Part shown: positions 22,803 through 60,046 of the stretch, one piece after another
How positions within the stretch are numbered: position 1 is the first letter of the stretch
How the letters are laid out: each line of letters starts with the position of its first letter
Assembly (NCBI RefSeq): GCF_947489565.1
Contig: NZ_CANLEA010000002.1
Span: 186,001 to 250,000, forward strand
Direction of reading: 5' to 3'
Source of the DNA: an uncultured Kordia sp.
GTDB taxonomy: Bacteria > Bacteroidota > Bacteroidia > Flavobacteriales > Flavobacteriaceae
DNA: 64,000 bases
Translations under genes and position numbers: made by a program
The notes under the pieces: model-generated
Database searches by the model: none
Told to the model about the DNA's origin: nothing
What the model saw: only the letters and a program-made list of their open reading frames with translations

Positions 22803-22895
22803 CTAAAGTCCAATAACTTCTTCTATAATTGAACCGCCAACTATAAGTTGCGTGTTTTCAATTTGGTGTTGTGCTAATTGATTTATTGTTTTCAT
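22803..22895 (-). CDS. 30-aa GG-containing peptide, copy 1
   Basis: Reverse-strand translation MKTINQLAQHQIENTQLIVGGSIIEEVIGL*; one of four tandem homologous ORFs of identical length. Confidence 0.75.
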   Translation of the reverse strand: MKTINQLAQHQIENTQLIVGGSIIEEVIGL

Positions 22896-22925
22896 CTGAA
22901 TTTGTTTTAAGAGTTTATACTAAAA

Positions 22926-23018
22926 TTAAAGACCTCCACTTTCTTCTATAATTGAACCGCCAACTATAACTTGCTCATTTTCAATTTTATACTGTACTAA
23001 TTGATCTACTGTTTTCAT
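22926..23018 (-). CDS. 30-aa GG-containing peptide, copy 2
   Basis: MKTVDQLVQYKIENEQVIVGGSIIEESGGL*. Confidence 0.75.
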   Translation of the reverse strand: MKTVDQLVQYKIENEQVIVGGSIIEESGGL

Positions 23019-23067
23019 CTAAATTTGTTTTAAAATTTATAATTAAGATTAATGCTGCTGAAAGAAA

Positions 23068-23160
23068 CTAAACTGCTCCACCTTCTTCAATGATAAAACC
23101 ACCAACAATAAGTTGCGTATTTTCAATTTGATATTCTTCTAATTGATGTATTATACTCAT
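23068..23160 (-). CDS. 30-aa GG-containing peptide, copy 3
   Basis: MSIIHQLEEYQIENTQLIVGGFIIEEGGAV*. Confidence 0.75.
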   Translation of the reverse strand: MSIIHQLEEYQIENTQLIVGGFIIEEGGAV

Positions 23161-23192
23161 AAGAATTTGTTTTAAAATTTATAAAATTAGGA

Positions 23193-23285
23193 TTAAATAC
23201 CTCCGTATTCTTCAACAATTGAACCGCCAATGATAAGCTGCTCGTTTTCAATTTGGTATTGTGTTAATTGATTCAATGTTTTCAT
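23193..23285 (-). CDS. 30-aa GG-containing peptide, copy 4
   Basis: MKTLNQLTQYQIENEQLIIGGSIVEEYGGI*. Confidence 0.75.
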   Translation of the reverse strand: MKTLNQLTQYQIENEQLIIGGSIVEEYGGI

Positions 23286-24681: not shown

Positions 24682-25320
24682 CTATTTATGCAATACATAG
24701 TTATTAGTCTTCGCATATTCTTCAATTGAATTGAGTCCTATAGCGCGTCTTCTTTCGTTTACTTTATGAGCATTTGCAATTGGATATATATATGTGAATC
24801 CAGATTTTTTGTCTTTTTTCACTTGAGTACCGTAGTGTTGTTTTTTACCGTTTCGCATTAAAATCCGATCTTTTAGAAAGGCTAAATACCAACCATCAGA
24901 TTCATTATTATTAACCGATGTAACTAAATAGGGTAAATATTTTTCTTGTGTGTCAATTTCTGCATGTTGTACGACCAACCATAAGGTTTGATTCGCCATT
25001 TCTCCTACTTTATTTTTACTAAGCCAACCATAAGTATCAATAATGTGCAACACTTTTTTTTCGTTGATGCTATCTTGTTCATGAATAAGTTTCCATATGT
25101 ATGCTAACTCATCTGAATTTCTTCCAAATTTAGCTTCAGCTTCTGGAAGTAATTGTCGTAAAGTTTGATCTTCGATACGAATAGTTTCCAATTGTGCTTT
25201 GAGCAGTTTGTAATCTATTGGTTTTGCTTGTATTTGCGTTTGACTCTGCATCGTTATTGAACTAATAATAATTGTTATGAAAAGTAGTTGTTTCATGATG
25301 TTGTGCGCTTTTTTAAGCAA
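24682..25320 (-). CDS. DUF6624-like secreted protein at end of grasp-with-spasm operon
   Basis: Signal peptide; QDSINEKKVLHIIDTYGWLSKNKVGEMANQTLWLVVQHAE ... YLAFLKDRILMRNGKKQHYGTQ pattern typical of the family; adjacent to gwsS. Confidence 0.65.
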   Translation of the reverse strand: MLKKAHNIMKQLLFITIIISSITMQSQTQIQAKPIDYKLLKAQLETIRIEDQTLRQLLPEAEAKFGRNSDELAYIWKLIHEQDSINEKKVLHIIDTYGWLSKNKVGEMANQTLWLVVQHAEIDTQEKYLPYLVTSVNNNESDGWYLAFLKDRILMRNGKKQHYGTQVKKDKKSGFTYIYPIANAHKVNERRRAIGLNSIEEYAKTNNYVLHK

Positions 25321-26386
25321 AAACAGTGTTTACACTTTCCACTTTATCTGCCCATTTTCCTGTGTAAGGATCGTATTGACATTTTGCTGGTTTGGAATGT
25401 AAATCTCCGTCTGTTGTATACGCTCTACAATCTGTACAGATGTATCGATATTCGCAATCTCTACAACCATCAATATTATCTTTGTTGATATTCCATGGTT
25501 TTTGGAATTCGGCATCATCGGCAATTTTTGTCAATGAAATGTTGTTTACATGTCCATACGATTTTTGCATAGAAGGACAGTTTTTCACATTTCCTGTTTC
25601 GTCAATAGAAATTTTTCTATTTAAACATCCGTTGTGCTTTATATTTTCGGTAAATCCTTTTACATCTCTAATTCGCATAGAGTTTACATTGATTAATCCG
25701 CAACCTTCGCAACCACTTACTTTTTGTTTGGTATAGCCCAAACTTCCGTGGTAAACTTTTGATCTGTTTTTAGCTTCAGGTTCTTCATCAAAAAGTTCCA
25801 TATCATACGTGTGATAGGTAACCTGAGCAATTTCATATTTATCTAAAAGTGCTTTTATTTCTTTTTCTTTTCCGTCATATTCAATTAAGAAGTCAATTGA
25901 TCGGAAGTTTTTTCCAACGGTCAATGCCAATATTTCTTCTAATCTAGAAACAGGTAATTGGCAATAAGCTCTAATTTGAATGTGATAACACGCCAAGACT
26001 TCTAATTCGTTAAAAATCTTCTCAAAATCGTGCATTTCATCACGGATATCAATAATAGAATTGATAATTTTTGATGGATGATCCCACTCCAGTTCCATTG
26101 CTGGAAATCGATCTAAAGTATCCACTACAATTGCCAACTCTATGTCAACTAAATAATCGATAAAGTCTTTAAAGAAAATGAGATCTTCTTCTCCATCGAG
26201 CATTTCGGCAACAGTACCGATATTATTTTCTTTAAGTACTGATAATAGTTCATAGTATGAATTATCAACAAAGTACACTTTTTGTCTAGAAACATCGCAT
26301 AACATTGTTCTTGTGTGTCCTTTTACAGGAAAACAATCTGCGAACATATAGAGATATTTATCTTTTATGGTGGCTAATTCTTTCAT
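25313..26386 (-). CDS. gwsS: Grasp-with-spasm system SPASM-domain peptide maturase
   Basis: Cys-rich C-terminus (CEGCGLIN, GCLNRKISIDETGNVKNCPSMQKSYGHV, CRDCEYRYICTDCRAYT); partner ATP-grasp adjacent. Confidence 0.85.
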   Translation of the reverse strand: MKELATIKDKYLYMFADCFPVKGHTRTMLCDVSRQKVYFVDNSYYELLSVLKENNIGTVAEMLDGEEDLIFFKDFIDYLVDIELAIVVDTLDRFPAMELEWDHPSKIINSIIDIRDEMHDFEKIFNELEVLACYHIQIRAYCQLPVSRLEEILALTVGKNFRSIDFLIEYDGKEKEIKALLDKYEIAQVTYHTYDMELFDEEPEAKNRSKVYHGSLGYTKQKVSGCEGCGLINVNSMRIRDVKGFTENIKHNGCLNRKISIDETGNVKNCPSMQKSYGHVNNISLTKIADDAEFQKPWNINKDNIDGCRDCEYRYICTDCRAYTTDGDLHSKPAKCQYDPYTGKWADKVESVNTVFA

Positions 26387-26390
26387 CTTT

Positions 26391-26597
26391 TTATCTTTTT
26401 ATTTCAGTAACATCTACAATTTTCGAAATTGGTTTATCGGATCCTGAATAAAAAATGATACTACTATATTTTTCACTATATGCAGTTCTATAAAAAGGAT
26501 CTGAAGGCAGCAACTCATTATATATAAGGTAATTATAAAATAATGGTAAGTTTTCTAGTTGTGGTTCGCTAATTGGTAATTTCTTTAGTTTTATCAT
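26391..26597 (-). CDS. Small uncharacterised protein between gwsS and gwsG
   Basis: 68-aa ORF tightly packed (3-4 bp gaps) between the two maturase genes. Confidence 0.65.
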   Translation of the reverse strand: MIKLKKLPISEPQLENLPLFYNYLIYNELLPSDPFYRTAYSEKYSSIIFYSGSDKPISKIVDVTEIKR

Positions 26598-26599
26598 GA

Positions 26600-27601
26600 T
26601 TACAAGATTTTAGCAATTTTTCGTTCTAAGTAATAATTACAAGGAGCGGACGTCATTCCAAATTGTCCAACAGGATTTACTTCTAAGAAGATGTAATTGT
26701 TGTCTTCATCGACTAAAATATCAATAGAACCTGTGTTTAATTGCAGTTCGTTCATGATGTCAATAAGTCCTTGTTTTACATGTTGTGGTAAATTATATGG
26801 CACTTTACGCTGCGGATTTTCTTGATCGGTATGTTTTCTAAAATCAACTACCGTATCTGCTCGTTTTTGCGAGAATATTGCCATTGCATAGAATTCTTCA
26901 TTGAGATAAAAAACTCTGAGTTCGTATTTTTTCTTGATTTCTTCTTGCAGTAATGATGGAAAAAAGCGATCTGGTAATTCGTCCAAACTTTCTTCAGTAA
27001 TACGCTCGGTATATGAATAATATCCATAATCTGGCGTAAAGTGATATACTCCTTGACTAATCGCTTTGGTTACTACAAAATTTGCATCTGTATTTGCTAA
27101 AATTCTTCGAATTCCTGCTTTTGTGGTCACCACATAACTTTTTGGAATTGGAACATTGTATTTTTTAGCAATTTCTAAGACAATCAGTTTGTTTACATCA
27201 GTACTCACATAATTTCCAATAGCAGTTACATCTTGTTGTAATATGTAATGAAAATACTCTGTGAGCACCTTGTACTCTGAGTTGATGTGATTTTTGTGAT
27301 AGTTTGGTGTATCGAATAAGATTCCTTTTTCAAGTTCGTCAAAATTGATCGCTACATTTTTCAATGAAAAACCTCTTCTTCTGTGCCAAATTGATGAAAT
27401 ATTGAATAAGTTATGTTCTTCTCCATGTTTGGAAACGGTCAATTCTCTATCGTCAATATCGAGAAAATGCAGGCGTGCTTTATCATCGTCGGTATTGAGG
27501 CGAATGTATGGCTTGTTATATTTTACAAGCCATTCAATTACATTGCTCGTACTTCCATCATCTTGACGGCTGAGTACTAATATTTTTTCATCGTTTTCCA
27601 T
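26600..27601 (-). CDS. gwsG: Grasp-with-spasm system ATP-grasp peptide maturase
   Basis: MENDEKILVLSRQDDGSTSNVIEWL, WHRRRGFSL, LQEEIKKKYELRVFYLNEEFYAMAIFSQ, DNNYIFLEVNPVGQFGMTSAPCNYYLE (MvdC/MvdD-like ATP-grasp). Confidence 0.88.
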   Translation of the reverse strand: MENDEKILVLSRQDDGSTSNVIEWLVKYNKPYIRLNTDDDKARLHFLDIDDRELTVSKHGEEHNLFNISSIWHRRRGFSLKNVAINFDELEKGILFDTPNYHKNHINSEYKVLTEYFHYILQQDVTAIGNYVSTDVNKLIVLEIAKKYNVPIPKSYVVTTKAGIRRILANTDANFVVTKAISQGVYHFTPDYGYYSYTERITEESLDELPDRFFPSLLQEEIKKKYELRVFYLNEEFYAMAIFSQKRADTVVDFRKHTDQENPQRKVPYNLPQHVKQGLIDIMNELQLNTGSIDILVDEDNNYIFLEVNPVGQFGMTSAPCNYYLERKIAKIL

Positions 27602-27607
27602 GGTATC

Positions 27608-27790
27608 TTAAAATTTTCCTGGATTGTCATACTCGTACTCAAGATCAACTTCTGTTTCTGCCATCGCTTTTAACGTTTGGGTTTTAGAATAGGTGTCTTG
27701 TGAACTTCTAACTGGTTCTATATTACCAGCTCGAACAGCTGCTAAATCCTTTTTAGACATTTCTTTGATTTTTGTGTTTGCTAATTTCAT
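27608..27790 (-). CDS. Graspetide-type precursor peptide (gws precursor)
   Basis: MKLANTKIKEMSKKDLAAVRAGNIEPVRSSQDTYSKTQTLKAMAETEVDLEYEYDNPGKF directly upstream of gwsG; leader + alternating T/S then alternating E/D core. Confidence 0.8.
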   Translation of the reverse strand: MKLANTKIKEMSKKDLAAVRAGNIEPVRSSQDTYSKTQTLKAMAETEVDLEYEYDNPGKF

Positions 27791-28129
27791 AATGACTGAT
27801 TTTTGTGGTTTATAAAATGTGTTTGTAATATAAATTTGAATCAGTAATACGTATAGGTAACAGTAAATATTCTGTTGTCAGAAACTAAAAGCAAAGTGAT
27901 TTAGAAGATTAGCGTCTTCGTTTAAATTAGTGTGGTAAATATTGTTATATCACTTGGTGCTTAGACAATGTTTCTAAAGGTGTGTGTTTTGAAGAATATA
28001 CTGTATTAACCTTTGTTAAGTACTGATGATTCTTTGTTTTGTAATGTGTAGGTAATACTCATTTATCACCTACACTACAATATTTAGTATATAGCTTGAT
28101 AATTACTTGTGTTTTATACAAATTCAAGA

Positions 28130-28294
28130 CTAATTTCCGTACTCTGCTTCGGCCTCTGCTTCAGACGAAGAACGTGCACTGTATGAATCTGTATTTGTTT
28201 GTGTTTGTCCATCTGAACTTTTAACACCTCCAGCAATCACTTTAAGCTCTTCTGGTAACATTTCTTTGATACCTTCTTTTTTGTTGAGTTTCAT
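28130..28294 (-). CDS. 54-aa graspetide-type precursor paralog
   Basis: Manual translation: MKLNKKEGIKEMLPEELKVIAGGVKSSDGQTQTNTDSYSARSSSEAEAEAEYGN*. Confidence 0.8.
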   Translation of the reverse strand: MKLNKKEGIKEMLPEELKVIAGGVKSSDGQTQTNTDSYSARSSSEAEAEAEYGN

Positions 28295-28317
28295 AAGAAT
28301 TGGTTTAATAGATTAAA

Positions 28318-28482
28318 CTATTTTGTCGGTATTGGTATCTCATATTCCGTTTCTATGGGAGCACGAGCGCTAGCTCTTCTTGAAATAGTATTTGTATCAC
28401 TATTTTGTTCTCTGAAACCACCTCGAATTACTTTTAATTCTTCTGGTTTCATTTCTTCGATACTTTTTTTACTTATCTTCAT
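28318..28482 (-). CDS. 54-aa graspetide-type precursor paralog
   Basis: Manual translation: MKISKKSIEEMKPEELKVIRGGFREQNSDTNTISRRASARAPIETEYEIPIPTK*. Confidence 0.8.
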   Translation of the reverse strand: MKISKKSIEEMKPEELKVIRGGFREQNSDTNTISRRASARAPIETEYEIPIPTK

Positions 28483-28555
28483 GACGTTAGTTTTTTGGTT
28501 ATTTATATACTAATGACTGCTTTTGTGGAAGCAGCCATTAGTTATAAATTAACTA

Positions 28556-28720
28556 TTACTTAGAAGAAGCTTCTGCCTCTGCTTCTGCTTCTGCAGATGA
28601 ACGAGCACTAGCTGTTGCAGTTGCTGTTGCAGTATCTCCACTAATTCTACTTAATCCTCCAGAGATTGCTTCTAATTCTTGAGCTGTCATTTCCTTTACG
28701 TTCTTTTTATTTAATTTCAT
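28556..28720 (-). CDS. 54-aa graspetide-type precursor paralog
   Basis: Manual translation: MKLNKKNVKEMTAQELEAISGGLSRISGDTATATATASARSSAEAEAEAEASSK*. Confidence 0.8.
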   Translation of the reverse strand: MKLNKKNVKEMTAQELEAISGGLSRISGDTATATATASARSSAEAEAEAEASSK

Positions 28721-28790: not shown

Positions 28791-29197
28791 TTGTTGCAAC
28801 GAATCGACAGTGCTAATTAATGGCGGAATTTCCTATTTATCAAGTGGTTAGTACTGACGTTTATAAATCTCATGCAACGGATTTATAAATCTCACGTTGC
28901 TAAATTTTCCGCAATTGCTTTATCTATAATAGCTTTACGAATATGTGTCTTTATTCTTGCATAAAACGCTATCTTTATACACATTTACAGTAATTTTAAA
29001 GTCACAAATTAATTTTTGTCAATTATACATATGTATTAACCTACAATTTTAATTGAATTTTAACCGTTATAGCTTTTGGAAAAGAGCATTTTTGGCATCA
29101 AATTCTAAATAATTAGAAAAAAGTGAAAAATTATATTCAAAATCTAGCCCCTTTTGCATGCGTTTTCGCAGATTTTTTCCGTAGGAAACATGATTTT

Positions 29198-30934
29198 ATG
29201 CTTAAAATTCACCTTATTTTACTGCTTTTTTGCTCAATTTCTGTTTCTGCACAGCTTGATACTGACTCTTTTGAAGGAATAAAATCTGAGTTTACGAAGG
29301 CTGCTAAAAATTCTGAAGAGGCTTTTAATAGCGCAAAAACGTATCTGGCGAAAGCCAAAGAAGTAAATGAAGTACACCGAATTGTAGAAGGTTATGAATT
29401 GTTTGTTTCCTATTATAGTCATACACCAAAAGCAGTTTCGTATACCGATAGTATTATTTTATTGACCAAAAATGCAAAACTAGAAGACTATCCTGCAGAA
29501 GGATATTTGTCAAAAGGGATCCAGTTATACTACAACTCTAAATATAATGATGCGCTTACCAATTTTGCGACTGCAAATGACATGGCGCTGGCAAATAAAA
29601 ATATTAGACAGCAAATTTCAATTAAGCATTATATAGGTTTACTTAAAAATGTAAGTGAAGAACGCGAGGAAGCTTTAAAGATTTTTCAGGAAAATATTGA
29701 GTTTATCCGTGAGAATAATTTTGAAAAGAAAAATCCGGAGCAATATTTAAAGTCCTTGTTTGCTCTTTCTAATTCCTATAATAAGAATCGTGTGTTAGAT
29801 TCTGCCGAAATTGTAAACAAGCTCGGAATAAAGGTGAGTTTACAACATCCTACCAAATATTTGTATCCTTGGTTTTTAACTTCTTACGGAGTTACTTCCT
29901 ATTATAGAGAGAACTATGCTACTGGAATTGACAGCTTGTTAAAAGCCACCAAATTTTTAAAGAATAACGAAAAAGCATTATGCTCTAATTACCTATATAT
30001 ATATAGGTGTATGGAAAAGTTAGGGAAAAATGATGCTGGTATTTCTTATTTATATAAGGTAGATTCTATTTACAATCAAAAACCAAAGGTCATTTTTCAA
30101 GCCAGAGAAGCGTATGAGTCTTTAAATATAGAACACAAAGCTGCTAAAGATCCTGAAAAACAATTGGCAACTATTGAAAAGTTATTAGCGGTAAATAAAA
30201 TTATTGAAGATGAGTATCAAAATCTGGGAAAAGAGATTGTTCAAAAGTATGATACACATTTGATGATTTCTGAAACCGAAGAACTTATCAATCAAAAAGA
30301 AGAACTCATCAATCAATTACAAGACAAAAACTTTTTATCACAAAAGAAAGTTACGGCACTTGTGATTACATCTATATTGTTCTTAGTCATCATTTTTTAC
30401 TTTTTTAGAAGAAATGTTGTATACAAGAAACGCTTTAAAGCATTGATGGAAGAATACGATCAAAAGAAAGTTGAGAAAGAAAAAGCACAAAATACAAACA
30501 ATACAACTACAGAAAAGGAAACTTTGGTTTCATCGGCACAAAAAGAAAGCATTGGATTGCCAGAAGAAATTGTAGCGCCCATTTTGGTGAAATTGAAAAG
30601 ATTTGAAGATACACATCGATTTACGAAGAAAAATTACACCTTAACAAAACTTGCTAAGGAATTAGATACCAATAGTACTTACTTATCAAAGATCATTAAT
30701 ATGACCAAAGGAATGAATTTTGCAAAGTATATGAATGAAATCCGAATTGATTATGCAATTACACAATTGAAAGAAAATAAACTGTTTCGTTCGTACACAA
30801 TTAAGGCCATTGCACAGGAGGTTGGTTTTAATAATGCACAGTCATTTTCAATCGCTTTTCACAAAAAAACGGGCATTAATCCATCTTACTTCTTAAAACA
30901 ACTTGAAAATCAGAATAAAGTTTCAAGTGGTTGA
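29198..30934 (+). CDS. Membrane-tethered TPR + AraC-type HTH regulator
   Basis: ATG at 29198 gives signal sequence MLKIHLILLLFCSISVSAQ; TPR-like region, TM segment VTALVITSILFLVIIFYFF, coiled coil, C-terminal AraC HTH (YIKAIAQEVGFNNAQSFSIAFHKKTGINPSYFLKQ-like). Confidence 0.85.
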   Translation: MLKIHLILLLFCSISVSAQLDTDSFEGIKSEFTKAAKNSEEAFNSAKTYLAKAKEVNEVHRIVEGYELFVSYYSHTPKAVSYTDSIILLTKNAKLEDYPAEGYLSKGIQLYYNSKYNDALTNFATANDMALANKNIRQQISIKHYIGLLKNVSEEREEALKIFQENIEFIRENNFEKKNPEQYLKSLFALSNSYNKNRVLDSAEIVNKLGIKVSLQHPTKYLYPWFLTSYGVTSYYRENYATGIDSLLKATKFLKNNEKALCSNYLYIYRCMEKLGKNDAGISYLYKVDSIYNQKPKVIFQAREAYESLNIEHKAAKDPEKQLATIEKLLAVNKIIEDEYQNLGKEIVQKYDTHLMISETEELINQKEELINQLQDKNFLSQKKVTALVITSILFLVIIFYFFRRNVVYKKRFKALMEEYDQKKVEKEKAQNTNNTTTEKETLVSSAQKESIGLPEEIVAPILVKLKRFEDTHRFTKKNYTLTKLAKELDTNSTYLSKIINMTKGMNFAKYMNEIRIDYAITQLKENKLFRSYTIKAIAQEVGFNNAQSFSIAFHKKTGINPSYFLKQLENQNKVSSG

Positions 30935-31052
30935 TTTTCAATTATTTATATTTTAATTTTTATCGTGATATTTATAAATACCACTATACTTCATTATAAA
31001 AGGGGTGTGTTTTGATATACATTTACATCGTAATCAAAATAACTTTAACACC

Positions 31053-31226
31053 ATGAAAACTACAAAAAGAAACTTAGGAAAACTTACATTATCTAAATTA
31101 ATGATCGCTCAAGTTGGAGACCCAAGAAAAATATGTGGAGGATCTCTTCCAAGGCCAACAGAAAACTGTACAAGTCAAAATATTTGTACACTATTATGCG
31201 CTGGCGATACCATAGACACACAATAG
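31053..31226 (+). CDS. Lanthipeptide-like precursor (orphan)
   Basis: MKTTKRNLGKLTLSKLMIAQVGDPRKICGGSLPRPTENCTSQNICTLLCAGDTIDTQ; Bacteroidetes class I leader-like LxLxKxxIAxx motif, Cys/Thr-containing C-terminus. Confidence 0.65.
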   Translation: MKTTKRNLGKLTLSKLMIAQVGDPRKICGGSLPRPTENCTSQNICTLLCAGDTIDTQ

Positions 31227-31263
31227 TATAAAGAATTTATATTTCTCTTTTTTCATAATCACA

Positions 31264-31314
31264 AAAATGCTATTTCAAGTGTGATGCACACCCATCCTCT
31301 TGAGGTAGCATTTT
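31264..31314 (+). terminator. Imperfect hairpin after the 57-aa precursor
   Basis: aaaatgctatttcaagtgtgatgcacacccatcctcttgaggtagcatttt then tgttttt. Confidence 0.6.
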
Positions 31315-31348
31315 GTTTTTAGAAAGAAGAACACTCAAAAACTACCAA

Positions 31349-33523
31349 ATGAAATACCCATTCCCTCTTTATTTATTACTTCTTGTTTTTAATACACAAT
31401 GCACTACTAATAAACAAGAACCTCTTTTCGCTACTGAAAAACCTGTAATCAATACGTATTTTTCTACCATAGTTGAAGATCCGTATCAATACCTAGAAAA
31501 TTTAAAAGATAGTGCCGTACTATCCTGGCTGGTTTCTCAAAATGAATATACCAAAACTACATTGCAGCATATTTCTGGACGCCAACAACTTTTGAAAAAG
31601 ATTGAAACCTACGATAACATGGGTTCCGAAGCTACTTATAACCTAAAAGTACTATCACCGTCTGCATATTACTATTTAAAATACGCTAAAAATCATGAAG
31701 CTAATGTTCTGTATTTTAAGAATGGAATTCACGGAAAAGAAATGGAGATTTTTAATTCTGAGAATTATAAGTCAAACTCCAAAGACAAGTATATTATTAA
31801 TTATTTTCAGCCAAGCTGGAATGGTAAAAAAATAGCCATTGGATTTACTAAAAACGACGAAGAATTCTCGGAAGTTGTTATTTACGATGTACCCACAAAA
31901 ACATTTCACAAAGAAATTATTGACCATTGTTGGCCGTCTGAATTAGGCGGAATTAATTGGTTAGATGATAATTCTGGATTCACCTATTTACATATCCCAG
32001 ATATTGATACTACATCGCCTAATTATATCTTAGATTCTGCTACCGTTTTATACCATTTAGGAACAAATCCGAAAGATTTACATATTATTTTTTCCAGAAA
32101 AACACATCCACAACTTCATTTAAATCCTGCCGATTTTCCTATTGTAAATATTTTTGGGAAAGACCAAAAGTATATGTTTGGCAGAGTTGGCGGAATTGGG
32201 TTTAAAGACTATTACTATGCACCCATAAGTGAATTACAGCAAAAAAATGTGACTTGGAAACCGCTGTTTAAAAAGAAACATAAGGTAGAAAAGTTTTTGC
32301 CTCACGGAGAAGAGATCTATTTTTCAAGCGCACAAAAAGTTTCCAACTTTAGCTTGTATAAAACAACTTTTAAAGATATTAATTTTGACTCGCCTTCGGA
32401 GGTAATTCCTACCATAACTGATGAAATCATCAAAGATTTCACCATAACTTCCGAAGGCTTATTCTATACAACTTCCAAAAATGGTGTACTCGCAAGTTTA
32501 TACCATTCCACCAATACAAAAAATGAAAAGATTGCATTGCCTGAAACATCTGGAAGTATTCATTTATCAACGATTGGCACACAATTTCCAGAGTTATGGA
32601 TAGAAACTCAAGGTTGGACAAGTCATAAAAACCGTTATCGCTATTCCGTCAAAAAGAAGACGTTTAAGAAAGAGAATGTAACTCCAGTACTAGATTATCC
32701 AGTATTTAATGATATTGTCATAAAAGAGATTGAAATTACGTCTCACGATGGTGTACAAGTTCCTTTATCGATCATTTATAAGAAAGGAATGATAAAGAAT
32801 GGTAAAAACCGTATGCTGCTGAATGGTTATGGTTGCTACAACTGGATTAATGCGCCTATGTTGTATCCGTATTTATTGTATTGGATTTCCGAAGGTGGCA
32901 TTTACGCGGTAGCTCATGTGCGTGGTGGCGGTGAAAAAGGAGAACAATGGCACAAAAGCGGTTATAAAACAACAAAACCAAATACTTGGAAAGATTTTAT
33001 TGCTTGTACCGAATATTTGATTGATGAAGGATATACTTCTTCAGAACGTTTTGCTGTTTGGGGCGGAAGTGCTGGAGGAATTAATATTGGACGCGCAGTT
33101 ACGGAACGCCCTGATTTGTATGCTGCTGTTGTGATTAGAGTTGGCTTGTTGAATACAGTACGATCTGAGATTGCACCTAACGGACAAAATAATATTAAGG
33201 AATTTGGTACGGTAAAAGATTCTACAGAGTTTGAAGCGTTGTTAGCGATGGATGCCTATCATCATATTGAGAAAAATGTAGCGTATCCTTCGGTGTTTTT
33301 AACTTCGGGCATCAACGATTCGCGAGTGGCAGCTTGGCAACCGGCTAAGTTTGCTGCACGTATGCAAGCAGCTACGAGTTCAGAAAATCCTATTTTATTG
33401 TCTGTCAATTTTTCGGAAGGTCACGGTTTTGATCGTACACAGAAGAGCAAACGTGAAGAACTTGCAGATATTATTTCTTTTGCTTTGTGGCGAACTGGAA
33501 GTGAGAAGTATCGGTTGAAGTAG
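31349..33523 (+). CDS. Prolyl oligopeptidase family (S9) serine peptidase, lipoprotein
   Basis: ATG 31349; lipobox-like LLLLVFNTQC; beta-propeller; VWGGSAGGINIGRAVTERPDLYAAV, GINDSRVAAWQPAKFAARMQ, FSEGHGFD. Confidence 0.9.
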   Translation: MKYPFPLYLLLLVFNTQCTTNKQEPLFATEKPVINTYFSTIVEDPYQYLENLKDSAVLSWLVSQNEYTKTTLQHISGRQQLLKKIETYDNMGSEATYNLKVLSPSAYYYLKYAKNHEANVLYFKNGIHGKEMEIFNSENYKSNSKDKYIINYFQPSWNGKKIAIGFTKNDEEFSEVVIYDVPTKTFHKEIIDHCWPSELGGINWLDDNSGFTYLHIPDIDTTSPNYILDSATVLYHLGTNPKDLHIIFSRKTHPQLHLNPADFPIVNIFGKDQKYMFGRVGGIGFKDYYYAPISELQQKNVTWKPLFKKKHKVEKFLPHGEEIYFSSAQKVSNFSLYKTTFKDINFDSPSEVIPTITDEIIKDFTITSEGLFYTTSKNGVLASLYHSTNTKNEKIALPETSGSIHLSTIGTQFPELWIETQGWTSHKNRYRYSVKKKTFKKENVTPVLDYPVFNDIVIKEIEITSHDGVQVPLSIIYKKGMIKNGKNRMLLNGYGCYNWINAPMLYPYLLYWISEGGIYAVAHVRGGGEKGEQWHKSGYKTTKPNTWKDFIACTEYLIDEGYTSSERFAVWGGSAGGINIGRAVTERPDLYAAVVIRVGLLNTVRSEIAPNGQNNIKEFGTVKDSTEFEALLAMDAYHHIEKNVAYPSVFLTSGINDSRVAAWQPAKFAARMQAATSSENPILLSVNFSEGHGFDRTQKSKREELADIISFALWRTGSEKYRLK

Positions 33524-40448: not shown

Positions 40449-41510
40449 ATGACAACTAAAGACAACCTATCAGCATTTATTTTACAAAAGCTTCAAGAGC
40501 ATTCTAACACAACTAATGTTGGTATTTTGAATGGACTTGCAGGTGAAAGCTTGTATCATTTTTATAGAAGTGAACTACTAGATGAAGACGCTTCGTATGA
40601 TACTGCTGTATTAAAACTACAACAAGTCATTGAAATTATGAGTAGTGGTCAAGTGCATACTACGTTTTATAATGGTTTGGCTGGTATTGGTTGGTTTATT
40701 TGTCATTTGAACGAAGCTGAAATTGCAGAAATTGATATTGAAGATTTTTTAGATACTTCGGTAGATACACTTTTGTATGAAGATATGATTCAGTTTTTGA
40801 ATATGAATTTGTATGATTTCTTTTATGGCGCCACAGGTATTTGCTTTTATTTTTTAAAAAGATTTATAACGACACAAAATCCTGCTTTAAAAGAAACATA
40901 CAAAACATATATTACTCAATTTCTGTTTTATATAGAATACAGAAGCATTACTGATGTACATGGCAAGTATTGGAAACAGCATTCGTATCCTTTTGAAAAT
41001 GATCAGGGACGTTACCAATTGAGTGCAGCCAATAATATTTCTGGATTGATGTTGGTATTGACTGAAATTGCAAAGATTGCTGATTTTAATCCTGTGTGTT
41101 TGCCTTTGTTGAAAACGTCGAGTAGTTGGTTGTTGTATCAACTGGAAACGGAAGAAAGTATTCGAATGGATCAGGCGTATTGCTTATGGAAAGCTGGAAA
41201 GGTGCTGGAAAACGATTCGCTTCAAGCAAAAGCAATTCAGTTTTTAAAACAGACAACAGACTATCTTTCCCAAGAGAACAGTATTTCATTGAGTAAGTTT
41301 GTACTGATTTACCAAAGCATTGGCCATGAAACAAATGATGCATTCTTCACAGAAAAAGCTACAGAGAGTTTTCAAATCATGAAAGAACAACTCGCACAAG
41401 AAGATGTAAAAGATACTAGCATTTGGAAAGGATATGCAGGCATTGGATTGACTGATCTTTCTGTAAAGTTTAACCTTACTACACATTGGGAAGCTTGTAT
41501 GCTTATTTAA
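40449..41510 (+). CDS. LanC-like (lanthionine synthetase C family) protein, apparently degenerate
   Basis: Repeated NGLAGE..., YNGLAGIGWFICHL, YGATGICFYFL, WKGYAGIGL alpha/alpha-toroid motifs; residual AYCLWKAG but no evident CHG motif. Confidence 0.7.
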   Translation: MTTKDNLSAFILQKLQEHSNTTNVGILNGLAGESLYHFYRSELLDEDASYDTAVLKLQQVIEIMSSGQVHTTFYNGLAGIGWFICHLNEAEIAEIDIEDFLDTSVDTLLYEDMIQFLNMNLYDFFYGATGICFYFLKRFITTQNPALKETYKTYITQFLFYIEYRSITDVHGKYWKQHSYPFENDQGRYQLSAANNISGLMLVLTEIAKIADFNPVCLPLLKTSSSWLLYQLETEESIRMDQAYCLWKAGKVLENDSLQAKAIQFLKQTTDYLSQENSISLSKFVLIYQSIGHETNDAFFTEKATESFQIMKEQLAQEDVKDTSIWKGYAGIGLTDLSVKFNLTTHWEACMLI

Positions 41511-41520
41511 TTTTTTGTTT

Positions 41521-42270
41521 ATGGAGAAAGCACTGGAAAAATTTATATCACATTGGAAACAGCAACCTAACGTAAGAGGCATTTTGCTTACAGGAAGTTA
41601 TGCGGTTGGTATACAGAAAGAAGATTCTGATGTAGATATTCGTTTGATTTTGAAGGATGATGTGCCAGAATCATTTAAAGGACTGGAAACAATTGATGGT
41701 TTTAGCTTTTCTTTTATTGGAAGAAGCAAAGCTGTGACGTTGAAAAAGTTTAACCGACAGTTTTTTTCGCATGTAAAAATGGAAGCGTGCATTTATAATG
41801 TTGGTAAAATTTTACATGATCCTTTTGGTGATATTGCTGAAATTATGAAAGTAGCTAAGATATATGTTGATACACCGCTGGTTGCCAAAGAAATTTCTGA
41901 AGCCGATTTGAAATTGTATATGTATTCATTGCATAAAAAGTACAGTTACATTATGAGCACTGATCCTGATGATCCTTTTTATGTATATAATTATATGATG
42001 TATTTAAAAAGTGCGCTTCATCGTTATGCAGATTTCATAAATGCTGAGATTATGTTTGAGAACGATAGCAAACTGAGTCGTTTTTTAACTGATGAACGTT
42101 ATTTGGCTGCTTATGGATATGAAAAATTTCCAGATCAAGACTTTATGGCTTTATGGCTTGCGGGTTTGAAAGAAAAAAGCACTTCTTGCATTGCAGAAAT
42201 TCACAACTATTTAAGAAAGAATTTGCATAACTTTAACGATAGTAATACTATCATTTCTTGGCATGATTGA
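41521..42270 (+). CDS. Nucleotidyltransferase domain protein
   Basis: GILLTGSYAVGIQKEDSDVDIRLIL (GSxxxG...DSDxD) signature. ORF-track start is 41515 (TTG-initiated); ATG at 41521 (MEKALEKF) is the more likely start. Confidence 0.85.
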   Translation: MEKALEKFISHWKQQPNVRGILLTGSYAVGIQKEDSDVDIRLILKDDVPESFKGLETIDGFSFSFIGRSKAVTLKKFNRQFFSHVKMEACIYNVGKILHDPFGDIAEIMKVAKIYVDTPLVAKEISEADLKLYMYSLHKKYSYIMSTDPDDPFYVYNYMMYLKSALHRYADFINAEIMFENDSKLSRFLTDERYLAAYGYEKFPDQDFMALWLAGLKEKSTSCIAEIHNYLRKNLHNFNDSNTIISWHD

Positions 42271-55154: not shown

Positions 55155-56045
55155 ATGAATTCGAAACTTTTCACACTTACAGCACTTTTTTTGTTTTTTA
55201 TTATAAAAATAAATGCCCAAAATGACATCTATCCAACTCCAGATATTCCAATAAGTAATGTGTTAGATTTTACATTATTGGTAGAAGATACAGCAAACGG
55301 TCAGGATTTTCAATTACTAACCGATGATCAGTATTCTGTGTTGCCGTATAATGATCTCTTTTTTAAGATTGATCTTCAGTACAGATCTGAAATTGATAAT
55401 GTAACTTTTTACAGATTGGCATGTAGTTTTGACCGACCACCTTCGTTTCAAGATCCTAACGCACCAGATCATTTTTTCGGAATTACAAATCCTGTACTTA
55501 TTCCGCCTGTTCGAAAAAAGAAAGGTGGCAAATTTGAGCAAGTAGATGAAATATTAAGACCTCTTGGAACGTATCCTTATTTAGCGAAAGCTGAATATGT
55601 GATTCGACCTACTATTTATAAAGTTACTGTGAAGTTATTAGAGTATGCTAATTTTACCGATTACATCAATAATTCTCCTCATTATACTGTAGGACCAACA
55701 GCAAGTTTTATTTTGTTTGCACAAAACAGTCCAAATCCAACTTCAGAAAGAAGTACTTCAGATGCTTTTTCTGTAACAACATTTCCAAACCCAAGCACAA
55801 AATTTGTAACATTTAAATATACACGCGAAGCTTCAGAGAATACAATTTCAGCACAGCTTCCATTAAATGTTGTTATTTATAACGATAAAGGAATTCAGGT
55901 AAGTCAGCATACATTGACGAGCGCCAAAACAAAAATAAATAGTATTTACTACAATTTAGATACCTCACATTTACAAAAAGGAAGTTATTATTTTCAACTT
56001 TTGCACCGTGGTAAAACTCAAGTCAAAACTATTGTAAAACAGTAG
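55155..56045 (+). CDS. T9SS-sorted secreted protein, PVLIPPVRKKK family, copy 1
   Basis: Signal peptide; GITNPVLIPPVRKKKG; C-terminal type A sorting-like domain (TFPNPSTKFVTFKYT...VVIYNDKGIQV...LQKGSYYFQLLHRGKTQVKTIVKQ). Confidence 0.85.
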   Translation: MNSKLFTLTALFLFFIIKINAQNDIYPTPDIPISNVLDFTLLVEDTANGQDFQLLTDDQYSVLPYNDLFFKIDLQYRSEIDNVTFYRLACSFDRPPSFQDPNAPDHFFGITNPVLIPPVRKKKGGKFEQVDEILRPLGTYPYLAKAEYVIRPTIYKVTVKLLEYANFTDYINNSPHYTVGPTASFILFAQNSPNPTSERSTSDAFSVTTFPNPSTKFVTFKYTREASENTISAQLPLNVVIYNDKGIQVSQHTLTSAKTKINSIYYNLDTSHLQKGSYYFQLLHRGKTQVKTIVKQ

Positions 56046-56274
56046 TCTTTTTTATGGTTAAACAAAGAAAGTCATCTATATGTTTATGTAGATGGCTTCT
56101 CTTCTCAAAAAAGAGAAAACGCTAAAACATTCTTAAAATCAACAGCTTACATTAAGAAAACTTTAAGAAAGCAACTACAATTTTATTTAAATTTATAAAT
56201 ATGAACACCTGTAAGTTGTAACACATATTGAAATATTCATACTTTACTTTACGTCTAACTAAAACTATATTGTT

Positions 56275-57132
56275 ATGAATTTAAAACTATTTACACTTAC
56301 AGCACTTTTCTTATTTTTTGTCGTAAAAGTAAGCGCTCAAACCGCTGATCCGGTTGTGCCAATTCCTATTGATAATATTATTGATATTGATTTTTCAGTA
56401 ACTGACGGCATCAATGGACAACACTATGCAATTACTACTGCCGCAGAACATGCCGTACGTAGTGGAGATAATTTTATATTCAAAATAAACCTTAACCACA
56501 ACTCTCAAGATAGTACAGTTCATTATTTTGGAATACAGTATACACTTGAACGCTTGTTTGCTGATGGAACGCGAGAAATTATAAGAGGTATTACTGCACC
56601 TGTATTGATTCCGCCTGTGAAAAAGAAGAATGGAAATTTTGAGGTTAGAATTCACGATATTAGAGCAGAAGCATATCCGTTTTTAATTCATGGAACGCAT
56701 ACTTTACAGAATATTAGGTATGAAATAAAGATGAACTTAGTAAAATATGATTCAAGAGCCGATTATATAAATGAAACTAATAATTATACTCGTATAGAGC
56801 CTGCCATAAATTTTATTTTGGATGCCAGCAATTTTCCGATACCAGGAGATGTTGTATCGCTAAGAACGTATCCAAACCCAAGTATTGATCATGTTATTAT
56901 TGAACAAACAACTATTGCAACAGAAAATACAATTGCACAAAACTCACCTTTGGAAGTTGTTATTTTTAATGATAAAGGAATTAAAATGAATCAGCTTTCA
57001 TTGGCTCACAATAGTAAAAAAGCGAACAGCACTTTGTACACTGTTGATGTTTCACACTTACAAAAAGGAATGTACTTTTTTCAGTTCTCACAAGGAAACA
57101 ACACTCAGGTAAAAACAGTCATAAAAAAATAG
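56275..57132 (+). CDS. T9SS-sorted secreted protein, PVLIPPVRKKK family, copy 2
   Basis: GITAPVLIPPVKKKNG; TYPNPSIDHVIIEQ...VVIFNDKGIKM...LQKGMYFFQFSQGNNTQVKTVIKK. Confidence 0.85.
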   Translation: MNLKLFTLTALFLFFVVKVSAQTADPVVPIPIDNIIDIDFSVTDGINGQHYAITTAAEHAVRSGDNFIFKINLNHNSQDSTVHYFGIQYTLERLFADGTREIIRGITAPVLIPPVKKKNGNFEVRIHDIRAEAYPFLIHGTHTLQNIRYEIKMNLVKYDSRADYINETNNYTRIEPAINFILDASNFPIPGDVVSLRTYPNPSIDHVIIEQTTIATENTIAQNSPLEVVIFNDKGIKMNQLSLAHNSKKANSTLYTVDVSHLQKGMYFFQFSQGNNTQVKTVIKK

Positions 57133-57152
57133 CCGCTACCAACTATTAACAT

Positions 57153-57190
57153 AAAAAGTCATTCACATCATGTAATTGAGTGACTTTTTT
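57153..57190 (+). terminator. Hairpin after copy 2
   Basis: aaaaagtcattcacatcatgtaattgagtgactttttt. Confidence 0.7.
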
Positions 57191-57204
57191 AAAAAAAAAT
57201 TGTT

Positions 57205-58044
57205 ATGAATTCAAGAATTTTCACACTTATACCCGTATTCGTATTGTTTTGTATTGCAAAAGCATTTACACAAAATACGCACGCCAATGCATCGCCTAGT
57301 ACCGTTAACATTATCAACATGACTTTATTAGCAGAAGATTCTACAAAAGGACTGGAATTTAAGTTCCAAACAGATGATGTGTATTATGCGACACCTGATG
57401 CTTCTATTAAGTTGCTTATTGAATTAGATTACCAGTCTCAACTAAAGGACACTTCTTTTTTGGGAATACGATACGCTTTTAAAGAAAAGGATAACAGCTT
57501 ACCTTCTGGACTAACACATGGAATTACAGCACCTGTATTAATTCCTCCCGTGAGAAAGAAAAGACCTAATGAATATAGACCTAGTGGCGAGCCAAATTAT
57601 CCGTTTTCCATAGACACTAATCTTCACCTAGCAACCAAAACATATACGGCTACAATTACCTTGTATAAATACCGTGATATTGACGATTATATAAGTAATG
57701 GGAATAGTAAAGAAATAGCAGAATATACATTTGATATCATTGTAAGTTCGCAAAACTCAACTCCATTAGCGAGTAGAAACTTGGAGAATTCTATGTTGGT
57801 AAAAACCTATCCCAATCCAAGTGCAGATCATATTATTATTGAGCAAATGAATACTACAGCTGCCAATACACCTTTGGAAGTCGTTATTTTTAATGATAAA
57901 GGGATCAAAGTTCGTCAATATCGTTTGACAAGTACAAACAATGCTCCTTACAATTTGAACATCTCACATTTACAAAAAGGAATGTACTTCTTGCAATTGT
58001 CTCAAGGAAATAAAACTCAGGTAAAAACTATTGTAAAAAAATAG
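57205..58044 (+). CDS. T9SS-sorted secreted protein, PVLIPPVRKKK family, copy 3
   Basis: GITAPVLIPPVRKKRP; TYPNPSADHIIIEQ...VVIFNDKGIKV...LQKGMYFLQLSQGNKTQVKTIVKK. Confidence 0.85.
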   Translation: MNSRIFTLIPVFVLFCIAKAFTQNTHANASPSTVNIINMTLLAEDSTKGLEFKFQTDDVYYATPDASIKLLIELDYQSQLKDTSFLGIRYAFKEKDNSLPSGLTHGITAPVLIPPVRKKRPNEYRPSGEPNYPFSIDTNLHLATKTYTATITLYKYRDIDDYISNGNSKEIAEYTFDIIVSSQNSTPLASRNLENSMLVKTYPNPSADHIIIEQMNTTAANTPLEVVIFNDKGIKVRQYRLTSTNNAPYNLNISHLQKGMYFLQLSQGNKTQVKTIVKK

Positions 58045-58063
58045 TTTTACACACGGTTACTAC

Positions 58064-58100
58064 GAAAAGTCATCTGCTCGATCTTCATAGATGACTTTTC
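58064..58100 (+). terminator. Hairpin after copy 3
   Basis: gaaaagtcatct-gctcgatcttcat-agatgacttttc, 12-bp perfect stem. Confidence 0.75.
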
Positions 58101-58206
58101 AATACACAGCTTATTAAAAACAACAAAGCTACTCTTTCCAAAAAAACCGAAAACCACCTAATTGACTTAAAAATCAATTTTTTATGAATCAAAAAACACC
58201 ATTGTT

Positions 58207-59049
58207 ATGAAACTAAAACTTTTTGTATTTACAACACTATTAGCATTCTTTTTTATCTTAAAAACAACTGCTCAAAATAGTACAGCACCTGCAGACAACG
58301 ACTTTATAGATATCAATTTAAAGGTAACTGACGGCTCTCAAAATCAAGATTTCAAAATTAGCACAGAGAGCAAACACTCTTTACCCAATAAAACCAATAT
58401 TGCTTTTAAAATACATCTTGATTATTTGTCGACCGAAGACACCACAAGTTATTTAGGAATACAGTATGAAATTTTTGAACGATTAGTTGATGGATCAGTA
58501 GGTGGAACGCTCAAAGGACTTACCGCTCCAGTATTAATTCCTCCTGTTAGAAAGAAAAAATCAAGAGTTGAAAATAAAGATAAATCATTTCCTTTTTCCA
58601 TTATTGATACCACACAAATAGCAGCAAATATGAGGTATAAGATAGTCATGAACATCGCAAAGTTCGATTCTCAAGATGATTATGAAGACCACAAAAACAA
58701 CAATAATAATACAAACTATGAGATCATATCTTTAATAAGTTTTGATATTAATACATACACTGCCAACGCAGAAAGAGATCCTTTTTTAGTGACTATTTCT
58801 CCTAATCCTGTTACTGACTATATTACTATTCAGCACACGAAAACTAGCATTGAGAAAAGCTTGTTACCAAAAGTCACTTTGGAAGTCCGTATTTTTAATG
58901 ACAAAGGCGTCAAAGTGAGTGAATATAGTTTGACAGATACAGAAAATGCGCCTTATACTTTAGATATTTCGCAGTTACAAAAAGGAGTTTATCACTGTCA
59001 ACTTTCAAACGGAACGGAAACTCAAGTCAAGACCATTGTCAAACAATAG
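58207..59049 (+). CDS. T9SS-sorted secreted protein, PVLIPPVRKKK family, copy 4
   Basis: GLTAPVLIPPVRKKKS; ISPNPVTDYITIQ...VRIFNDKGVKV...LQKGVYHCQLSNGTETQVKTIVKQ. Confidence 0.85.
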   Translation: MKLKLFVFTTLLAFFFILKTTAQNSTAPADNDFIDINLKVTDGSQNQDFKISTESKHSLPNKTNIAFKIHLDYLSTEDTTSYLGIQYEIFERLVDGSVGGTLKGLTAPVLIPPVRKKKSRVENKDKSFPFSIIDTTQIAANMRYKIVMNIAKFDSQDDYEDHKNNNNNTNYEIISLISFDINTYTANAERDPFLVTISPNPVTDYITIQHTKTSIEKSLLPKVTLEVRIFNDKGVKVSEYSLTDTENAPYTLDISQLQKGVYHCQLSNGTETQVKTIVKQ

Positions 59050-59070
59050 TTTTCACTCTTTAATTATTAC

Positions 59071-59107
59071 GAAAAGTCATCTGCTCGATCTTCTTAGGTG
59101 GCTTTTC
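59071..59107 (+). terminator. Hairpin after copy 4 (homologous to that after copy 3)
   Basis: gaaaagtcatct-gctcgatcttctt-aggtggcttttc. Confidence 0.7.
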
Positions 59108-59206
59108 AACACATCGCTTATTTAAAAAAGCAAAGCTACTCTTCTATAAAAAACCGCTTGATTGATTTATAAATCAATTTATTATTAATCAAAAAACGTT
59201 ATTGTT

Positions 59207-60046
59207 ATGAATTTAAAATTTTTCACACTTACAACGCTATTCTTTTTTTTCATTGTAAAAACAAATGCTCAAACCTCAACGACGGCTCAGTACAATAAAA
59301 TAGGCATTACACTATCTGTAGAAGATAGTATTTCTGGAGGTCAAAGCTTTAAATTAACTGCACAAGATGAATATTTAATTTTCCCTTACCGTTCCACATT
59401 TTTTGAAATAGATTTAGAGTATCAATCTACAGAAGATATTGTAAGTTATTTTGGCATCCAATATAAGTTATGCAAAATGAACGAAGGCATTATTGGCGAA
59501 ATTGTACGAGGAGTTACTGTGCCTGTCCTTATTCCACCTGTTCGAAAAAAGAAATCTGGTTTTGAAGCTGGCGCAAGAATCGGTGGGCGACAATATCCTC
59601 ATAAAATTTACACTCGATATGTTACAGAATACACAGATTATTTTGCCAGAATCATATTGGTAAAGTATGATTCTAGACAAGACTATTTGGACGAAACAAA
59701 CAATTTTCAAGAAATAGATACTGTTGAGTTTGATTTAATAAGACATACGAATGATAATCTACTGCTAAATTCTCCAGAATCTTTTACTGTAACGACACAT
59801 CCAAATCCTATTACGAATCAAATAACGATTACAACACAAAATGCTCCATCACCACAAGCACCTATGGAAGTTGTTATTTTTAATAATAAAGGAATTAAAG
59901 TTAGCAATCATACGTTGGTTGTTTTTGAAACTACAGAAAATAGTATTTCATACAATTTAGACACCACACATTTACCAAAAGGAGTGTATTATTATAAATT
60001 TAAACAAGGAACTAAAACGCTAGTCAAAACCATTATAAAAGAATAA
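59207..60046 (+). CDS. T9SS-sorted secreted protein, PVLIPPVRKKK family, copy 5
   Basis: GVTVPVLIPPVRKKKS; THPNPITNQITI...VVIFNNKGIKV...LPKGVYYYKFKQGTKTLVKTIIKE. Confidence 0.85.
   Translation: MNLKFFTLTTLFFFFIVKTNAQTSTTAQYNKIGITLSVEDSISGGQSFKLTAQDEYLIFPYRSTFFEIDLEYQSTEDIVSYFGIQYKLCKMNEGIIGEIVRGVTVPVLIPPVRKKKSGFEAGARIGGRQYPHKIYTRYVTEYTDYFARIILVKYDSRQDYLDETNNFQEIDTVEFDLIRHTNDNLLLNSPESFTVTTHPNPITNQITITTQNAPSPQAPMEVVIFNNKGIKVSNHTLVVFETTENSISYNLDTTHLPKGVYYYKFKQGTKTLVKTIIKE

Follow-up and report, generated by a model that had tools for sequence, protein, structure and literature searches.

Two-residue ladders of graspetide donors and acceptors in grasp-with-spasm precursors of Kordia

Nested stem-loop graspetides are known with two to five cross-links, rungs spaced by two residues and an order of closure that runs from the turn to the end (PMC12291112, PMC13003496, PMC13001092, PMC13097080). 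In amycolimiditide, one of these stem-loop peptides, closure starts at the loop and proceeds down the stem (PMC13003496), and a spacing of two residues is accepted by such ligases, as in rosaritide (S9-D26/T11-D24) and the engineered ThfA29 (PMC13097080, PMC12291112). The grasp-with-spasm cluster type (TIGR04192/TIGR04193) has also been catalogued, as 'branch 5' of PMC8939145, in whose loci the LPL family sits directly upstream of the SPASM gene. It is probably the same as group 14 of PMC13097080, all members of which co-occur with a SPASM protein.

Here we describe a locus of this type in a 64,000-nucleotide stretch of DNA from an uncultured Kordia sp. (the window), the precursors of which carry ladders that are a longer, two-residue-spaced variant of the known graspetide class. 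With grasp-with-spasm loci in general it shares the ligase, the SPASM and LPL proteins, GG leaders, several dissimilar precursors at each locus and an origin in Bacteroidota, but the strict two-residue ladder was found here in only one GwsG clade. The likeness to the nested stem-loop set (two cross-links in fuscimiditide, three in OEP6-1, four in amycolimiditide, up to five in SsfA) lies in the nested esters that we infer around a loop. Fuscimiditide is spaced by four residues (T3-D22, T7-D18), whereas the Kordia ladder is spaced by two; graspimiditides have a PIMT methyltransferase, whereas none is present in the Kordia cluster, the neighbours being DUF6624, a methionine sulfoxide reductase and an AraC-type regulator; and the ladder clade has up to seven or eight candidate rungs, against up to five in the nested stem-loop set. 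Rosaritide has acceptors two apart (D22, D24, D26) and two nested links, but its three links include a crossed one, and its partner protein and phylum are different. Plesiocin resembles the ladders in its hairpin-like nested pairs and four-residue turn and differs in having adjacent TT/EE pairs in repeated units. Microviridin is related through its ligase family (MdnC/MdnB relatives) and differs in its TxKxPSDx(E/D) core and PFFARFL leader.

A reading of the window made from the sequence alone had noted that the layout departs from the microviridin and plesiocin motifs. This is correct in so far as none of the four precursors contains either motif, TTxxxxEE included. However, because nesting, two-residue spacing, turn-to-end order and the cluster type had already been described, the Kordia layout is better taken as an extension of the known nested topology. 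A strict two-residue ladder of four to eight residues per arm, confined to one GwsG clade, was not found in the article texts consulted, although individual sequences may be listed in the supplementary tables of earlier surveys; literature searches on grasp-with-spasm names or ladder graspetides returned nothing further.

The Kordia cluster and its surroundings

Judged by its gene content, the Kordia locus is a standard grasp-with-spasm graspetide cluster. Four precursor genes come first, followed downstream by gwsG, the gene of an LPL-family protein, gwsS and the gene of a DUF6624 protein; the P4 gene stops immediately before gwsG.

28556..28720, minus strand: precursor P1, 54 aa; ladder TATATATAS-ARSSA-EAEAEAE at 28571-28633
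28318..28482, minus strand: precursor P2, 54 aa; shortened ladder TNTISRRAS...ETEYE at 28339-28395
28130..28294, minus strand: precursor P3, 54 aa; ladder TQTNTDSYS...EAEAEAE at 28142-28204
27608..27790, minus strand: precursor P4, 60 aa; leader ending in AG; ladder TYSKTQTLK...ETEVDLEYEYD at 27626-27694
26600..27601, minus strand: gwsG, graspetide synthetase (ATP-grasp ligase); TIGR04192, 453.6 bits (cut-off 230)
26391..26597, minus strand: LPL-family small protein, 68 aa, with motif NLPLFYNY; directly upstream of gwsS, predicted accessory
25313..26386, minus strand: gwsS, SPASM protein; TIGR04193, 456.9 bits (cut-off 175)
24682..25296, minus strand: DUF6624 protein, PF20329, 57.3 bits (cut-off 27); graspetide-cluster companion, also adjacent in the more distant genome G308

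The four minus-strand peptide ORFs predicted by the sequence-only reading were all recovered at their positions and lengths (54, 54, 54 and 60 aa), together with the common leader it had described, which ends in GG or, in P4, AG. P1 exceeds the cut-offs of two NCBIfam bacteriocin-leader models and has orthologues in a second Kordia genome, G006 (locus L030), and in Kordia algicida (locus L031). The precursors combine this leader with a core of donor and acceptor residues from which Cys is almost absent. The alternation claimed for all four cores, with Thr/Ser and then Glu/Asp at every second residue, is strict in P1 and P3 (five donors and four acceptors each) and in P4 (six acceptors and five donors, T, S, T, T and K, with Lys as the fifth). 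It does not extend to P2, where Arg at position 6 (TNTISRRAS) breaks the run and three acceptors are present. The triplet SAR does stand at the turn of P1-P3, as had been noted, but it is not a defining feature, because some orthologues carry SFR or SFN there.

GwsG also gives weaker matches to the MvdC/MvdD models, and its solved relatives in the PDB are ligases of the MdnC/MdnB/CdnC type. Its DxR motif is DFR (D253-x-R255), a motif called critical in PMC13097080, and both residues are invariant in 82 aligned GwsG sequences. The ATP-grasp residues K138, K179, R229, D294 and N309 are conserved as well; with the motif residues of the cognate ligase intact, the earlier assignment of the peptides as graspetide precursors stands.

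Upstream of P1 (window 29123-33523, plus strand) lie an AraC-type regulator and, further out, an S9 prolyl oligopeptidase, which is notable in that most characterised graspetides inhibit proteases. Other features of the window include four tandem 30-aa ORFs at 22803-23285 on the minus strand (MKTxxQLxQ.QIENxQLIVGGSIIEExGG.), every one of which has a start of its own and a GG close to its end; one such ORF was seen in G006, in the vicinity of the orthologous cluster (L030). A 57-aa Cys-containing GG peptide at 31053-31226 on the plus strand (MKTTKRNLGKL...GGSLPRPTENCTSQNICTLLC) is conserved in G006 and K. algicida. Also on the plus strand, a LanC-like protein (PF05147) followed by a nucleotidyltransferase is encoded at 40449-42270, with no lanthipeptide dehydratase noticed nearby, and five tandem paralogues of ~280 aa occupy 55155-60046, the first with a type IX secretion sorting tail (PF18962).

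Register and distribution of the ladders

Residues were numbered from the first ladder Thr (position 0), with T/S/K counted as donors and E/D as acceptors. Ten Kordia precursors (four from this locus, five from G006 and one from K. algicida) align without gaps in a register with donors at 0, 2, 4, 6 and 8 and acceptors at 14, 16, 18 and 20. At seven of these nine sites (0, 2, 4 and 8; 14, 16 and 18) the class is kept in 10/10 precursors. Positions 6 and 20 keep it in seven, the exceptions being the same three peptides (R6 with P20), such that donor 6 and acceptor 20 are lost jointly. The in-between positions of the arms are variable, with three to six different residues each. When the cores were shuffled with their composition preserved (20,000 shuffles each), the probabilities obtained were 1.5e-4 (P1), 1.4e-3 (P2), 3e-4 (P3) and 5e-5 (P4), and ranged from 5e-5 to 0.03 over all 14 precursors. 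Across all DNA fetched, ladders of at least 4:4 were present in 12 of 3,416 small ORFs, namely 11 of these precursors and their homologues plus one other gws precursor, and in none of 607 long ORFs.

A GwsG search of 400 genomes of the family identified a 52% identical enzyme in another genus of Flavobacteriaceae (G308). Its precursor, SFSASASLSASLS-LGYT-EVDVEVEAEGEAE, consists of seven Ser, a turn and seven E/D, and is followed by gwsG, LPL, gwsS and DUF6624, as in the Kordia window. When the search was widened to the order, G1055 was found in a second family, and a search of a genus gave G1213 and G1264; the precursors of these three species carry 16-17 Ser, encoded by mixed codons, and then seven or eight alternating D/E. 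The searches covered 1,996 genomes in all, a figure in which some genomes count more than once. A scan of genome contigs for related loci gave a single match, in K. algicida; a precursor profile search of the family returned nothing beyond the ladders already known and, in G134, two leader-like matches; and the ladder-clade GwsG profile detected no further ladder in the second family. No ladder-clade ligase was found on plasmids, since the plasmid relatives are all below 60% identity (best ~33%).

Conservation of the alternation in homologues, proposed earlier as a check, is borne out by the orthologues and by the more distant homologues. So is the suggested covariation of T/S and E/D counts: both rise, from 3-5 in Kordia to 7-8 in the other genera, and donor and acceptor run lengths are correlated (Spearman 0.95, n=9, from few lineages that are not phylogenetically independent).

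Ladders of at least 4:4 occur in seven of 118 distinct GwsG-type loci, and LPL homologues are present in 7/7 of them. In a maximum-likelihood tree of 82 GwsG sequences, a sample enriched for relatives of the Kordia enzyme and with a bootstrap not fully settled, the seven ladder loci form one group (support 100/98, one state change) as against 75 others. The nearest non-ladder enzymes (L148, L156) are accompanied by short DxD-type cores, and the motifs of other gws precursors are short or irregular. A sister core motif, approximately TxTxRRxTxxTGxDxD....DxD, was observed at L033, L034, L089, L150 and L158, which belong to a different GwsG clade. At L035, L041, L042, L045 and L096 the gws precursors bear EF-hand/dockerin-like motifs after the GG (for example, DSNGDGKWNSGE and DNDEDGIWSSGDEF), a resemblance that suggests calcium binding.

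Proposed product and alternative explanations

Since each arm of the related precursors from other genera offers seven or eight cross-linkable positions, one at every second residue, the Kordia peptides probably become hairpins zipped on one face by ester bonds. We consider it fairly probable that GwsG joins the arms of these grasp-with-spasm precursors by nested omega-esters, from the turn outward. The bacteriocin-type leader ending in GG/AG would carry the core to GwsG, which would phosphorylate the Glu/Asp side chains successively, starting at the turn and moving outward, and each phosphorylated residue would be attacked from the other arm by the hydroxyl of a Thr/Ser (or the amine of a Lys). 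The product would be a beta-hairpin with one face stapled by nested omega-ester rungs, about three in P2, four in P1 and P3 and up to five in P4, and about seven in other genera. Removal of the leader would fall to a GG-type C39 exporter whose gene lies outside the cluster; C39 peptidase genes are present elsewhere in the genome.

If four or more residues are required inside the innermost ring, all acceptors of the alternating run find a partner by nested pairing in 11 of 14 cores; one is left over in P4 and in the G006 orthologue of P4, which share an extra E12, and one in the G1055 core. In P2 the nested pairs would be 0-18, 2-16 and 4-14, with one rung fewer and a wider loop, which explains the joint loss of donor 6 and acceptor 20. 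A Thr/Ser-Glu ester spans up to ~4.9 Å from C-beta to C-beta, a distance compatible with cross-strand pairs. The Thr/Ser-Asp ester counts against a nested hairpin, its span of at most ~3.7 Å being tight in a regular one. So do position 8 (S/K), which is invariant and yet stays in the loop in the nested register that uses T0, and the poly-Ser cores, which have no unique register. AlphaFold, run on the G308 precursor in unmodified form, gave an uninformative model without a hairpin (pLDDT 57, 14-row alignment).

The same residues could instead be linked by GwsG in a crossed manner, i to i+14 in Kordia and i+17 in G308, giving an interlocked, microviridin-like cage. A constant offset also accounts for the acceptors of the run, about as well as nesting, and for this reason the counts do not decide the topology. 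Joint loss of positions was tried as a test of the two pairings and both fit, an offset of 14 explaining the paired loss of 6 and 20 position by position. Microviridin cross-links are indeed staggered (PMC12291112), but the known stemmed graspetides have nested links (PMC12291112, PMC13001092), a linker of 2-5 residues (for example, LGYT or YA) would hardly let two extended arms run parallel, and position 8 would be unpaired in most Kordia peptides. We therefore regard crossing as unlikely and prefer nesting, given the very short turns, the nested state of known stemmed graspetides and the closure of amycolimiditide from the loop outward. Somewhat less likely again is a product with one or two esters near the turn, the remaining ladder serving for recognition of the substrate, for solubility or for the binding of metal by the acidic arm. 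The short or irregular motifs of other gws precursors would agree with it, as would rosaritide, in which two Asp, T23 and S25 are left free (PMC13097080); however, donor and acceptor runs grow together, and both arms of the G308 core are strictly spaced over seven positions.

A modification made mainly by GwsS, with radical cross-links and the ladder chiefly as its substrate, seems very improbable. It is true that gwsS accompanies gwsG and that the SPASM cysteines are retained in GwsS homologues, but the barrel CxxxCxxC was found in none of 97 full-length homologues (the one match lies inside the SPASM part), the residues of the ladder are precisely those that act as donors and acceptors in graspetides, and the cores are nearly free of Cys. 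The AlphaFold model of GwsS (mean pLDDT 66, better in the N-terminal part) matches the fold of CteB and SuiB. In Foldseek, the N-terminal part of this mixed-confidence model matched lasso-peptide RREs (TM 0.67-0.74 by target length), and GwsS appears to carry an N-terminal RRE-like domain, for which no Pfam match was obtained. GwsS would accordingly be a leader-binding partner and not a radical enzyme, a reading weaker than the ladder result. Scarcely credible is an origin of the alternation in short tandem DNA repeats (hexanucleotide slippage) with no structural role: the P1 DNA is almost a GCA-GAA/GCA-ACA repeat and a 12-nt unit occurs three times in the G1264 poly-Ser, but P2, P3, P4 and G308 hold the register with varied in-between residues and mixed codons, and the conserved sites are the ladder sites, confined to one GwsG clade. 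Slippage alone was rejected, as conservation of the ladder positions extends to peptides encoded by non-repetitive DNA.

Returning to nested closure, a broader and more doubtful proposal is that enzymes of this GwsG clade act as processive ester zippers, which would make as many rungs as are encoded, seven or more, on a single face of the hairpin; GwsS would then serve in recognition, as a non-radical partner that bears an RRE.

Graspetides described in the article texts consulted have up to five nested side-chain links; should the rungs form, the present ladders would be the longest of this kind. They would also be natural hairpins stapled on one face, the other face being free to vary between paralogues, and as such useful in peptide design. 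The ladder set offers a clean test of whether the ligase counts rungs or reads positions, and it opens the role of GwsS and of the LPL protein to testing.
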